Below are positions 4,572 to 12,484 of a stretch of 36,214 nt of DNA, one piece after another. Source of the DNA: a virus; the IMG/VR virus record IMGVR_UViG_3300044675_003887, positions 1 to 36,214 of that record; one strand, 5' to 3'. The notes beneath the pieces were generated by a model. That model saw nothing but the letters and a program-made list of their open reading frames with translations, did no database searches and was not told where the DNA came from. The first letter of the stretch is position 1, and each line of letters opens with the position of its first letter. The position numbers and the translations under genes are program-made.

Positions 4572-4798
4572 GGCGATTCCTTGCTAAGTTCCTCGATCGG
4601 AACCAGTCGCAACGCCTTCTCAATGGGCATACCAATGATTCGAATCTTTGCACACAACGCGATGCCGCCAGATGACGTCTGCACGTCTTCGTTGCCGACA
4701 ATTTCTACATATTGCCCTTTCCACATCAGAAGAGGGTCTGCTGAACTTTTTCTGTAGATTGCTGTTTCTCGAAGTTGCTTTTTAGTCTGCCTCGACAT
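4568..4798 (-). CDS. Hypothetical protein
   Basis: 76 aa (MSRQTKKQLRETAIYRKSS...). A strong GGAGGTGA ribosome binding site inside the end of the IbrA-like gene precedes the ATG, and the two genes overlap by 17 nt. The middle (WKGQYVEIVGNEDVQ, IALCAKIRIIGMPIE) looks like a small beta-rich domain. Not recognised. The tight overlap suggests co-production with the IbrA-like protein. Confidence 0.65.
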   Translation of the reverse strand: MSRQTKKQLRETAIYRKSSADPLLMWKGQYVEIVGNEDVQTSSGGIALCAKIRIIGMPIEKALRLVPIEELSKESP

Positions 4799-6014
4799 GG
4801 CTCACCTCCAATGCCTTTGCTGCCCGTCGCTTTGTTCGCAATTCTTTGAACGTCTGATATGCGTCTGACAGCGGCTGAGACTGACCAAGACCTTTGCACC
4901 AATAATCATTTCGCAGAATTACCTTGCACATTCGCCGCCACGACGGTGCCCAGCACTTAACCTCCAGTTCGTGCGGGGCTTCTTCTGGAATTGTCACGTA
5001 GCCACGCTGCTGCCACCCTGCGATAAACTTTCGAAACCTTGCCAAATAGTGATCACGGGTTTTTTTTGGCATTGTCCGCAACAGCAAATTGCAAAACGAT
5101 TTCCATGTGTGGCCGTCAGGCTTGCTGATCTTGTTGTATCCGGTCATGTTGCCCGTTTCTTGAATGTACATCGCTCCGCTGTTTACGCCATTTACGCGAA
5201 CGATAAGCTTGTACCACGTCAGTGGCTCAAGAATGTGATATAGCCACAGTCCCTTGCGTTGATCGTCGCCATATGGTTGGCAAAGCCGCTGCTGACTGAG
5301 AGGAACGCCAGCCTTAGTCATTTGGTCATAAACCCTGTTATGATGACGATCCGGGTTTTTGCCATGGTAAACCCAAATGTCTTCAACTCGCCAATCATAA
5401 ATCGGATAGACGTTGTACAACTTACGAGCGACCTTCGTTGTCCACTTGTGCCCGTTAGCCATCAATCCGTCTTTGCGTGACACGATCGCCCTGTATCGAT
5501 GCAATGACTCATCTGAACGAATACCGATGAACGCCCCTGTCTTTTTTCCCTGAGAGTACCACTCGCCAAAGATTACCATCAACTCTTCAAATTCCATCTT
5601 TGGAGTGTAGAAATCGTATTGGCTTAAATCAGATGCCATTGCTGGCTTTTCGCGAACCCAAATATCCTTCTTGCCTTCATCCCAGCAGACCCATCGCGGC
5701 TGGTAATTCGACACGGCATTTCGCAGTAGTAGTTCGCCACAGAACCAATGCAAATCAATGTTGTCCGCATAACACGTAACCATTTCTTCAATGTGCTTGA
5801 TGGTGTCGGAATACTGTGCTTCCAGATCAATAATCAAAACGCCAACCTTGCGGTTCCGTCGCTTAGCCTCATCCATAACAAGATGAAACATTACCGAGCT
5901 ATCTTTGCCGCCGGAGAACGAAATATAAAGCCGCTCGAACATATCAAACGACTTAGCAATTCTTTCGCGAGCTTCATCAAGTACCGATGTCAGCAAATGC
6001 ACTTTTTTTGTCAT
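4782..6014 (-). CDS. PAPS-reductase-family ATP-pyrophosphatase, IbrA-like (DUF3440)
   Basis: 410 aa from the ATG at 6014, chosen because it follows the exonuclease stop by 4 nt with a GGAG site. The PP-loop is SFSGGKDSSVMFHL near residue 30. Other family signatures are IDLEAQYSDTI, WVREKP, IGIRSDESLHRYRAI and VYPIYDWRVEDIWVYHGKN. The C-terminal half has EPLTWYKLIVRVNG, typical of the IbrA/DUF3440 branch rather than assimilatory PAPS reductases. The PP-loop activates a substrate with ATP. The substrate of this branch is not established. In E. coli, IbrA acts with the ParB-like IbrB to switch on prophage genes, and an IbrB-like gene lies one gene upstream here. Confidence 0.85.
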   Translation of the reverse strand: MTKKVHLLTSVLDEARERIAKSFDMFERLYISFSGGKDSSVMFHLVMDEAKRRNRKVGVLIIDLEAQYSDTIKHIEEMVTCYADNIDLHWFCGELLLRNAVSNYQPRWVCWDEGKKDIWVREKPAMASDLSQYDFYTPKMEFEELMVIFGEWYSQGKKTGAFIGIRSDESLHRYRAIVSRKDGLMANGHKWTTKVARKLYNVYPIYDWRVEDIWVYHGKNPDRHHNRVYDQMTKAGVPLSQQRLCQPYGDDQRKGLWLYHILEPLTWYKLIVRVNGVNSGAMYIQETGNMTGYNKISKPDGHTWKSFCNLLLRTMPKKTRDHYLARFRKFIAGWQQRGYVTIPEEAPHELEVKCWAPSWRRMCKVILRNDYWCKGLGQSQPLSDAYQTFKELRTKRRAAKALEVSHVEAD

Positions 6015-6018
6015 ACAG

Positions 6019-6537
6019 TCACTCCAGTCTAATCGCGTATTTTGTAAGAATCGCCTGCATCTGTTTTGCCTGCGCAACTGCGTCAGATGCCGCGTTATGC
6101 TCAACCTCAGAAACAACCCTTTCGACCGGAAACACTTCTTTCATCGTGCGAAAGCATCGGTCTGCTGAATAGGGCCACGGCAACGCCATCCGACAAGCCC
6201 GATACGCAGACGCAAGTAAGGCATTATCAAATGCAGCTCCATCGCCCCAAATGCAGCACTTGCCTTTGCCGATGTAATCTGCAAACGACTGCAGTGCGTC
6301 GCGAATCGGAACAGCATTTAACGCCAAGGATTTGCGAGCGGCTTCGCTTTGTTTCATCCACCACATCACTGTCGATGGATCAATTCTCATTCCGGCCGCA
6401 ACGCAGGACTCAAGACTAATCGTGATCAATAGCGGATCGCCAACCTTGTAAATCGAAAACTCCACTGCCCCAATTTGCACCACAGCGGACCCCGGCGCAG
6501 TGCCCATGGTTTCTAAGTCCAGCATAATATGCCGCAT
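6019..6537 (-). CDS. DnaQ/DexA-like 3'-5' exonuclease
   Basis: 172 aa. The ATG at 6537 overlaps the ParB-like stop as TGATG. Exo I is MLDLETMG (Asp and Glu), Exo II is WGDGAAFDNALL near residue 90, and Exo III is EHNAASDAVAQA near 145 with the H...D pair. This is the DEDD(h) layout of phage DexA-like and Rv2179c-like exoribonucleases/exonucleases, at a normal length. Wedged between the IbrB-like and IbrA-like genes with 1- to 4-nt junctions, it may act on the same nucleic acid or transcript pathway, or simply degrade host nucleic acid. Confidence 0.82.
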   Translation of the reverse strand: MRHIMLDLETMGTAPGSAVVQIGAVEFSIYKVGDPLLITISLESCVAAGMRIDPSTVMWWMKQSEAARKSLALNAVPIRDALQSFADYIGKGKCCIWGDGAAFDNALLASAYRACRMALPWPYSADRCFRTMKEVFPVERVVSEVEHNAASDAVAQAKQMQAILTKYAIRLE

Positions 6538-9053: not shown

Positions 9054-9349
9054 TTTCGTATTGCCTCTATTTCGGAAAGAATTGTTTCGTCTGTAAGTTC
9101 GTCAGCGAGCAACTGCACCCGCTGTTCTGATTTGTGCTTCTCGATGTCTAGTTTTGCTTTCGCAACTCTTGCGTTCCATGCTGGCACCTCAGCAGGCTCT
9201 CTGAGGTCAATCGGAAGTCCGTTTGGGCATGGGTACATTTCGACGTAATCGCGAAGCCCGAGGTAGTAGGTATCGCCTGCCGTGACGCCGTGTGATGGCA
9301 TGTTTCGACAGCGTGACTCCCAGCGAATCCATGCCGCGACGCTACTCAT
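8978..9349 (-). CDS. Hypothetical protein
   Basis: 123 aa (MSSVAAWIRWESRCRNMPSHG...). An ATGA overlap with the resolvase gene supports the start. The first half has AGDTYYLGLRDYVEMYPCPNG. The second half is a long charged helix (about residues 58-95). It overlaps the next gene by 76 nt, more than any other pair in this operon, which suggests the C-terminal tail was added by stop-codon loss. Not recognised. Confidence 0.6.
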   Translation of the reverse strand: MSSVAAWIRWESRCRNMPSHGVTAGDTYYLGLRDYVEMYPCPNGLPIDLREPAEVPAWNARVAKAKLDIEKHKSEQRVQLLADELTDETILSEIEAIRKWARSLRQPTQSQTGSRELTQAGTN

Positions 9350-9789
9350 CGCCCGTTCCTAATCTGCCTGCAAAACTCCGCAATCAGCAAAGCATCAGCA
9401 TTAGCGTGAGTGATCTTCGTTGATGGCCAGAGTCGCTGTGCAGCCGCCTTGCTCACGTTCTTGTCGCCTTTCGTCAAGCATCTCATGTGCTTCTGCCAAA
9501 CTTGAGGCCGATATGATTCGTAAGGCACTTGCAACGCCGTCAGGATGCCAATCAAGAAGCCAAACGACTTGCCGAACTTGAAGGTTGATGAGACGCCCTG
9601 CTTTGGCATTGCGTTAACTTGCTCAATGACTGCTGCCAGTTCGTGCGACAAGGCCAGTTCACGAATCCAGTTTGCCAGCTCATGTTCTGTGCTGTCGTTC
9701 TTAATCCAGCAAACATTGCCCGAAGCAAAGACGACTGCGATTGCGCCGGATGCTCCGGGGTCAATTCCAATCCATGCTTGTACTTTCAT
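9346..9789 (-). CDS. RuvC-fold Holliday junction resolvase
   Basis: 147 aa from the ATG at 9789, an ATGA overlap with the gene upstream. The N-terminal strand carries the first catalytic Asp in WIGIDPGASGAIA. A Glu follows in AVIEQVNAMPKQG, and the C-terminal acidic residue lies in THANADALLIAEF. PYESYRPQVWQKHM corresponds to the conserved basic region. Length and motifs match phage RuvC-like resolvases, which cut four-way junctions before DNA packaging. Confidence 0.85.
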   Translation of the reverse strand: MKVQAWIGIDPGASGAIAVVFASGNVCWIKNDSTEHELANWIRELALSHELAAVIEQVNAMPKQGVSSTFKFGKSFGFLIGILTALQVPYESYRPQVWQKHMRCLTKGDKNVSKAAAQRLWPSTKITHANADALLIAEFCRQIRNGR

Positions 9790-10037
9790 CCCTGCCCCCT
9801 CAATACGCCGCGACCACTGGGCAGCATCCGCGTCGAACACTGCCGAATCTGTGAAGGCCGATACAAGCCTTTGTTTTCCGGGTGATCCGGCCGTTCCATG
9901 CGGATCATTTCCGCCATCCCGATCGTTGTTTCTGTGCCCCAGATCTCTTCCAATGATGGATCTCGCGTCATTGGCTTGTGGCCTGTTGGAACGTGTAGCC
10001 TGTTTGATTTCTTTCCGGCTTTCTTGCGTCGTGTCAT
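9786..10037 (-). CDS. Hypothetical protein
   Basis: 83 aa (MTRRKKAGKKSNRLHVPTG...). A basic N-terminus is followed by a segment with DPSLEEIWGTETTIGMAEMIRM that is probably helical. Its start abuts the csrA stop and its end overlaps the resolvase start. Not recognised. Confidence 0.55.
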   Translation of the reverse strand: MTRRKKAGKKSNRLHVPTGHKPMTRDPSLEEIWGTETTIGMAEMIRMERPDHPENKGLYRPSQIRQCSTRMLPSGRGVLRGQG

Positions 10038-10312
10038 TACACTTTCCTCCGCATTAGTTCGCCGGGGAGTCGTTCGCCAATTCGCACGACTGGCTGAACC
10101 GCTGGACGTTCCTTGCGTGGCTTGAATCCGTCCCGCTCAATTGCTTCAGCGATCTCAAGGCGATGAACCGCAATCGACCTGTCAGCCTCGATGCCAAGCC
10201 TGACTTTGTCGCCGCGAAGTTCATTGACGTTCAGCACAATGCGATGCGGGACGCTTGACGCTGGCACGTCGAAAATGATCTTTTCATCCAAACTCCGAGT
10301 AAGCACCAACAC
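10037..10312 (-). CDS. csrA: CsrA-family RNA-binding regulator
   Basis: 91 aa from a GTG at 10312. MLVLTRSLDEKIIF, IVLNVNELRGDKVRLGIEADRSIAVHRLEI is a clear CsrA domain: the N-terminal LTR, VRLGIEA and VHR residues used for RNA contact are present. A ~30-residue extension beyond the usual ~60 aa (KPRKERPAVQPVVRIGERLPGELMRRKV) is unlike bacterial CsrA. CsrA dimers bind GGA in hairpin loops and control translation and mRNA stability. Phage CsrA could redirect host metabolism or control phage genes. The gene follows a structured leader, and GAAAGGATTTC, overlapping its ribosome binding site, could be an autoregulatory site. Confidence 0.92.
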   Translation of the reverse strand: MLVLTRSLDEKIIFDVPASSVPHRIVLNVNELRGDKVRLGIEADRSIAVHRLEIAEAIERDGFKPRKERPAVQPVVRIGERLPGELMRRKV

Positions 10313-10316
10313 AGCG

Positions 10317-10327
10317 AAATCCTTTCA
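10317..10327 (-). promoter_or_regulatory. Candidate CsrA site at the csrA ribosome binding site
   Basis: GAAA-GGA-TTTC puts GGA in the loop of a 4-bp hairpin 5 nt before the GTG start. GGA in a loop at a Shine-Dalgarno is the known target type of CsrA. The three-base loop is small, so pairing may be partial. Autorepression is inferred. Confidence 0.35.
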
Positions 10328-10333
10328 TTGATT

Positions 10334-10398
10334 AAAAACCAGCGAGCGGCCAAAGGTGCCCACAGCACCATCCAACCGCTTGGACGGCCGCTCACTGG
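10334..10398 (-). terminator. Compound hairpin B with U-run, before csrA
   Basis: CCAGTGAGCGGCC (10398-10386) pairs with GGCCGCTCGCTGG (10351-10339), 13 bp with one G-U. It encloses TCCAA-GCGG-TTGGA and GGTGC-TGTGG-GCACC, a three-way junction. Five U follow directly. csrA starts 22 nt later. Confidence 0.6.
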
Positions 10399-10403
10399 GA
10401 GAG

Positions 10404-10474
10404 AAAACCTGCGGACGGCCTTGACGACCCTTGACCGTCATCCCCATGCCGACCGATGTCAGACCGTCCGCAGG
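10404..10474 (-). terminator. Compound hairpin A with U-run
   Basis: CCTGCGGACGG (10474-10464) pairs perfectly with CCGTCCGCAGG (10418-10408). It encloses TGACG-N9-CGTCA and probably another short hairpin, and is followed by UUUUCUCUC. It resembles hairpin B in layout, so the two form a tandem. Confidence 0.5.
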
Positions 10475-10636
10475 ATTCAAAAACAAAAGAGGCCGCGATT
10501 CTTTCGCACTGGGGATCAGCCACGATGACTTCATTCATCGCCTCTCGTGTATTCGCCCGCCGCCGTTGACAGCGGGCCGGACTGGAAACAATCCAGCCCG
10601 TTCCGATTTGATCCGGTGGACCCTTGCTCTCGCCGG

Positions 10637-10783
10637 TTAGTACGTTGGCGGGTAGTTATCTCTTGCCCATTTGTTCCCACGCTTGATCTGGCTTCGCTCG
10701 TCAGCGAGTTGCGATGATCCAGCCGCAAACCACGCCAAAACGATAAGTAACACTGTTGCGATGATTTCATTTAATAGCGGCAT
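10637..10783 (-). CDS. Small single-span membrane protein
   Basis: 48 aa from the ATG at 10783, with a GGAGAG site 7 nt upstream. Residues 5-22 (NEIIATVLLIVLAWFAAG) form one hydrophobic span followed by a charged tail. It overlaps the zinc-ribbon gene by 17 nt. An inner-membrane location is predicted. The function is unknown; small early membrane proteins of phages often alter host physiology or exclude other phages. Confidence 0.6.
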   Translation of the reverse strand: MPLLNEIIATVLLIVLAWFAAGSSQLADERSQIKRGNKWARDNYPPTY

Positions 10784-12388: not shown

Positions 12389-12438
12389 AAACACAGCAAG
12401 GACTGCCGGTAGCCCTGCAGTCCCCTCCCAGTGCTGTG
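12388..12438 (-). terminator. Terminator of the late operon
   Basis: CACAGCA (12438-12432) pairs with TGCTGTG (12398-12392) around an inner GGACTGC/GCAGTCC stem (12423-12417 and 12406-12400), followed by UUUU. On the plus strand the same hairpin directly follows the zinc-membrane gene but lacks a U-run. A further 8-bp inverted repeat (TGACCGGC...GCCGGTCA, 12440-12475) lies beside it. Confidence 0.7.
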
Positions 12439-12484
12439 CTGACCGGCTTCGCTTTTTATCCGCTGCTGCCGGTCATTGATGACT

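Follow-up and report, generated by a model that had tools for sequence, protein, structure and literature searches.

What does a 324-nt gap do in front of a phage csrA gene? The gap lies in a virus record of 36,214 bases (the window, i.e., the whole stretch of DNA analyzed), whose genes are mostly on the minus strand and run from terminase and portal through tail genes and small genes to csrA, a RuvC-like gene, and DnaB. An initial annotation had proposed that this gap holds structured RNA or tandem terminators and serves as an attenuator of early genes, as a small RNA that titrates CsrA, or as both.

The csrA locus and its structured gap

Between the stop of the upstream ORF (10637) and csrA, the gap contains the elements E0, E2, S3c, domain A, and domain B in this order, followed by the csrA ribosome-binding site:

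10611-10640 (minus strand): E0, a small two-part hairpin of the form CCGG-(GNNC)-AAGG-(GNNC)-CCGG; 11 distinct variants
10551-10608 (minus strand): E2, two directly abutting hairpins (the first at 10573-10600 and the second at 10551-10572 in the window); 9 distinct sequences, 16 pairs
10478-10550 (minus strand): S3c, a multibranch fold with a U-run; a 97% identical copy in L028/L124
10401-10477 (minus strand): domain A, a 13-bp P1 stem with a branched interior, then a U-run (arms 10405-10421/10461-10477); 32 distinct sequences
10330-10398 (minus strand): domain B, a compound terminator-like hairpin with a U-run directly before csrA (arms 10339-10351/10386-10398); found in only some relatives
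10320-10325 (minus strand): AAAGGA, Shine-Dalgarno sequence of csrA, directly after the U-run of domain B
10037-10312 (minus strand, read from 10312 to 10037): csrA, 91 aa, GTG start; Pfam PF02599 (CsrA), E 8e-14
9346-10037 (minus strand): an 83-aa ORF and a 164-aa ORF directly 3' of csrA; order kept in many related contigs

The gap folds with an energy of -155.8 kcal/mol (z = -6.05), and none of 100 shuffles was as low. An Rfam search of the window returned no family at or above the gathering cut-off, riboswitches included, and no tRNA-like element was seen in the gap. The two compound stems of the initial annotation are both present as domains A and B, with a U-run after each of them on the csrA strand, and its third hairpin (10573-10600) is real and forms the first half of E2; the second E2 hairpin, S3c, and E0 had been missed. 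Domain B does adjoin csrA, at a distance of 26 nt from its end to the GTG, the earlier figure of 22 nt having probably been counted from the U-run. A covariance model of domain A (R1) scored 59.7 bits on A and 28.5 bits on domain B. The TAA of E0 doubles as the stop codon of the upstream ORF; its inner pairs are of the types GAGC/GCUC, GCGC/GUGC, GAUC/GGUC, and GGGC/GUCC, and 98.9% of cells are paired across its variants, the window copy having one A-C mismatch.

In the CsrA alignment L4, R6, and R51 are conserved and the RNA-binding residues are kept, and most of the CsrA proteins from related phages share with the window's CsrA a C-terminal tail (VxRIGERLPGELMRRK) that ordinary CsrA lacks. 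Shine-Dalgarno sequences resembling AAAGGA or CGGAGG precede csrA in most relatives. The 164-aa ORF was judged RuvC-like from its sequence, and both downstream ORFs are probably read together with csrA. Since most of the closest cellular CsrA proteins belong to Planctomycetota, the phage host is probably a planctomycete, as far as this one protein can tell. A PAPS reductase-like protein is encoded elsewhere in the window (4782-6116, minus strand; PHROG 2302, E 5e-81).

Selection on pairing and strand

A null for pairing was obtained by re-scattering the observed substitutions on the tree in 1000 simulations. The paired-cell fractions of A, A1, S3a, and E2 exceeded all 1000 simulations, and S3a and E2 had more two-sided changes than any simulation of the null. 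Specifically, 97.9% of the E2 cells were paired (null maximum 95.1), with six two-sided pairs (null maximum 5). The P1 stem of domain A is 100% paired across 32 distinct sequences; taken alone, its paired-cell fraction lies above the null and its two-sided pair count within it (173/1000). Likewise, 17 domain-A sequences keep the 13-bp stem 100% paired, five of its pairs being compensated, and the pairing is lost when the partners are shifted along. A per-column-pair covariation test of the R-scape kind yielded 0 significant pairs; this test was without power, and therefore only the aggregate tests carry the support for pairing.

Counts of GU versus AC were 8/0 in A, 23/0 in S3a, 20/0 in E2, and 8/1 in E0. 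Because GU pairs are tolerated and AC mismatches are almost absent, these counts point to folds that were selected as RNA of the csrA strand. A conserved protein in the frame 10325-10534 had been named as the observation that would speak against such a reading. This frame is not conserved: the closest region, that of L124, is frameshifted by an indel in domain A, and other relatives are missing the sequence or have another in its place.

Module exchange and linkage to csrA

Among csrA relatives in IMG/VR, the same gap is filled by an ordered array of interchangeable parts comprising at least ten element types. The slots follow the order E0, E2, one slot-3 element (S3a, S3b, or S3c), a domain A subtype, and sometimes domain B; the third slot, held by S3c in the window and by S3a or S3b elsewhere, has at least three unrelated occupants. 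E2 is absent from some arrays, and in the few cases where domain A is absent the last module present bears a U-tract (S3b in L128, S3a in L120). H-type pseudoknots occur in some arrays and fall into two kinds; their connecting motifs are kept, and the sequence of both helices is replaced. Other arrays include tRNA-like elements, those of L002, L018, L026, L117, and L046 being recognized by eye only, and the Rfam matches among relatives were limited to tRNA in L013, L052, and L059.

These slots are exchanged between phages while the flanking genes stay, with DNA identities of 92-98% reached in flanking genes beside a differing module, and the order of genes around the array is conserved among array contigs. 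L113 resembles the window in g10637 (92% DNA identity), E0 (97%), E2 (91%), and ruvC (98%), and is unrelated to it in S3, A, and csrA, while L124 has S3c and A in common with the window and a different csrA. Across the arrays, the same domain A family precedes csrA types that are about 45% identical. The csrA gene is itself swapped between the window (10037-10312) and L113 (43% identity), the flanking proteins being mostly 94-100% identical.

Protein genes sit between the modules in some phages, and a second inserted ORF was found within the arrays of L082, L093, and L105. Such insertions favour a polycistronic transcript over an autonomous small RNA. The ORF located between E0 and E2 in L007-L009, L108, and L117 (about 270 aa) is ParB-like as judged from its sequence.

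Module scans with A, E0, S3b, and S3a sequences, none of which contains csrA, retrieved 58 loci (L082-L139). The next gene was csrA in 53/53 evaluable contigs, the other five breaking off no more than about 105 nt past the last module. In each of 18 records, the covariance model of domain A found a single array; its opposite-strand matches are shadows of the palindromes, and it matched domain B of the window too. Domain A was not found in GTDB genomes, neither the leader nor csrA had a relative in INPHARED, and the csrA leaders of unrelated phages gave no match to the domain A model.

The tRNA of L013 (2208-2275; Rfam 48.7 bits, tRNA-Glu-like by eye) has an anticodon arm that is a paired stem with a loop of about 3 nt. 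As this arm is without a normal loop, the tRNA probably cannot decode, and it may be a processing signal or a mimic. In three unrelated csrA contigs (L046, L052, and L059), csrA (2501) is immediately preceded by a terminator-like hairpin together with a tRNA or an element resembling one, and the tRNA of L052 carries a very large insertion.

A second RNA element was observed in the window at 12390-12447 (minus strand), consisting of a hairpin built around an invariant bulge, CUGGGA(A/G), with U's after it. Both of its helices are replaced between relatives, and it occurs in other loci of array phages, in several of them just 5' of g11749. No early promoter was found upstream of g11749, where this element lies instead, and a loose scan for it produced too many chance matches.

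Termination, read-through, and alternative readings

Intrinsic terminators were recognized as a stable GC-rich hairpin with an immediate U-tract on the transcribed strand, and by their hairpins and U-tracts A and B look like such terminators on the csrA strand, with loops of about 30-45 nt that are long for this class. With the d-score of d'Aubenton-Carafa (a formula with an E. coli calibration; d > 0 taken as positive), 24/32 variants of A and 4/5 of B were positive, against 0/57 for E0, E2, S3a, and S3b. The window copies scored +2.8 (A) and +20.1 (B), and the one S3c copy scored was borderline (-1.4). On the opposite strand 0/35 were positive (A 0/30, B 0/5), the U-tracts being on one strand only. 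In 22/22 distinct array csrA genes, the 100 nt 5' of csrA include a terminator-like hairpin; the same hairpin criterion selected 6/40 other phage csrA genes, 2/79 cellular csrA genes, and 26/411 control ORFs. The original reading as structured RNA or tandem terminators is thereby supported by the pairing in 32 domain-A sequences, by the strand-specific d-scores, and by the contrast between 22/22 and 26/411.

We give about even chances to the gap being a modular RNA leader, or attenuator, that gates csrA together with recombination and replication genes. Transcripts from the upstream genes would mostly stop at A and B, and csrA and the genes after it would be made when RNA polymerase reads through. 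Read-through would be set by the upstream non-terminator modules (e.g., E2) or by a phage or host factor. Because modules are exchanged between phages, such a gate could be retuned without any change in the genes. The array hairpins stop 25-43 nt short of the csrA start codon, a distance that can scarcely accommodate both a promoter and a Shine-Dalgarno sequence, so that csrA most likely depends on read-through; a promoter may be concealed within A or B. Attenuation of the downstream early genes, as the initial annotation had it, is plausible and favoured. Attenuators have mutually exclusive terminator and antiterminator folds; no conserved alternative pairing that could act as an antiterminator came to light, and the one candidate considered, a 5'-arm repeat in the loop of domain A, did not go beyond chance in comparison with shuffles.

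The array resembles leader attenuators and tandem terminators in having GC-rich hairpins that immediately precede a coding region and have a U-tract on their 3' side, in being restricted to one strand, and in having RNA structure upstream. It differs from them in its large branched hairpins, in the lack of a detected antiterminator fold, and in its exchangeable upstream modules. The put RNA of phage HK022 is a cis-acting antitermination element of about 70 nt with two stem-loops, which suppresses termination through the zinc-binding domain of the RNA polymerase beta' subunit (PMC9378689). E2 likewise has two adjacent stem-loops 5' of terminators in a phage operon and is presumably transcribed. 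This likeness is one of architecture (58 nt, and absent from some arrays) and offers a lead rather than membership. More broadly, we tentatively entertain the possibility, on balance a doubtful one, that the locus is an island of noncoding RNA cassettes in which each of the at least ten unrelated folds swapped in ordered slots before csrA (among them pseudoknots, branched hairpins, and tRNA-like elements whose anticodon arm is shortened or aberrant) acts either in cis, on transcription, or in trans, on host defence.

A simpler account would be plain insulation, with A and B as ordinary terminators placed in tandem at the end of the upstream operon, low basal expression of csrA through leakage or an unrecognized promoter, and the other hairpins acting as RNA-stabilizing 3' ends or persisting as neutral passengers. 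It would suit the terminator scores, which are confined to A and B, the hairpins before csrA in 6/40 other phage loci, and the position of the upstream hairpins after ORF stop codons. We nevertheless regard it as rather unlikely, because the 25-43 nt from U-tract to Shine-Dalgarno sequence leave hardly any promoter space, the upstream non-terminator elements are kept by compensatory change, unlike passengers, and the next gene is always csrA.

The modules might instead form an island of noncoding RNAs, processed to stable small RNAs (tRNA-like or pseudoknotted) that would act in trans, for instance in counter-defence or host take-over, A and B being merely 3' terminators. The Rfam tRNA with the shortened anticodon arm in the L013 array (48.7 bits), the pseudoknots with both helices replaced, the cassette-like swapping of slots, and the tRNA elements directly before csrA in the unrelated L052 and L059 all agree with this idea. 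It would, however, leave the strict linkage to csrA (53/53 contigs) unexplained, and the window is without a tRNA-like element, so we hold it to be unlikely. GOLLD and ROOL (PMC12286853) are also phage noncoding RNAs, elaborately folded and located near tRNA islands, whereas the array consists of short, separate, recombining modules tied to csrA and has no Rfam match.

The classical target of CsrA is GGA in a hairpin loop, and sRNAs of the CsrB/RsmZ type carry many such motifs. A CsrA-sequestering sRNA of this kind beside its target gene was suggested by the initial annotation from the GGA motifs inside the gap. There are indeed six, against 7.3 in shuffles. Compared with dinucleotide shuffles, the arrays contain 2.7 GGA where 4.1 are expected and 0.58 A(N)GGA where 1.72 are expected (an approximately threefold depletion), and hairpin loops with GGA stand at 0.25 against an expected 0.33, so without enrichment. 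Titration of CsrA is thus unsupported because its motifs are depleted, and binding of CsrA to the array through the classical GGA-in-loop motif is not expected. Although the array adjoins csrA, as structured RNAs do at CsrB/CsrC/RsmX-Z loci, the phage CsrA retains its RNA-binding residues, and S3b has an AGGAA loop, the absence of any match to the Rfam CsrB family in the array and the occurrence of one domain A family before csrA types only about 45% identical make such an sRNA very improbable. An element acting as DNA (an origin, recombination, or packaging site) would fit hairpins at an operon boundary and recombination hot spot, and is equally improbable given that AC, which is GU on the other strand, is almost never seen in A, S3a, E2, and E0 and that the U-tracts are confined to one strand.

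Phage homologues of CsrA/RsmA have been proposed to repress host CRISPR-Cas (PMC8450108); the portion of that source considered here likewise concerns a phage csrA gene, and treats the protein rather than the leader RNA. Terminators, leaders, and phage noncoding RNAs near tRNAs are known kinds of element. Neither Rfam nor the literature searched yielded the element families described here or their cassette-like exchange before csrA. The gap belongs to a previously uncatalogued set of phage RNA elements, supported by covariation in aggregate and tied to one gene, csrA; among ordered slots, phages shuffle these noncoding modules just as they shuffle protein genes. This opens to test both the timing of a CsrA-family regulator by the phage and the possible use of RNA-based antitermination by planctomycete phages.
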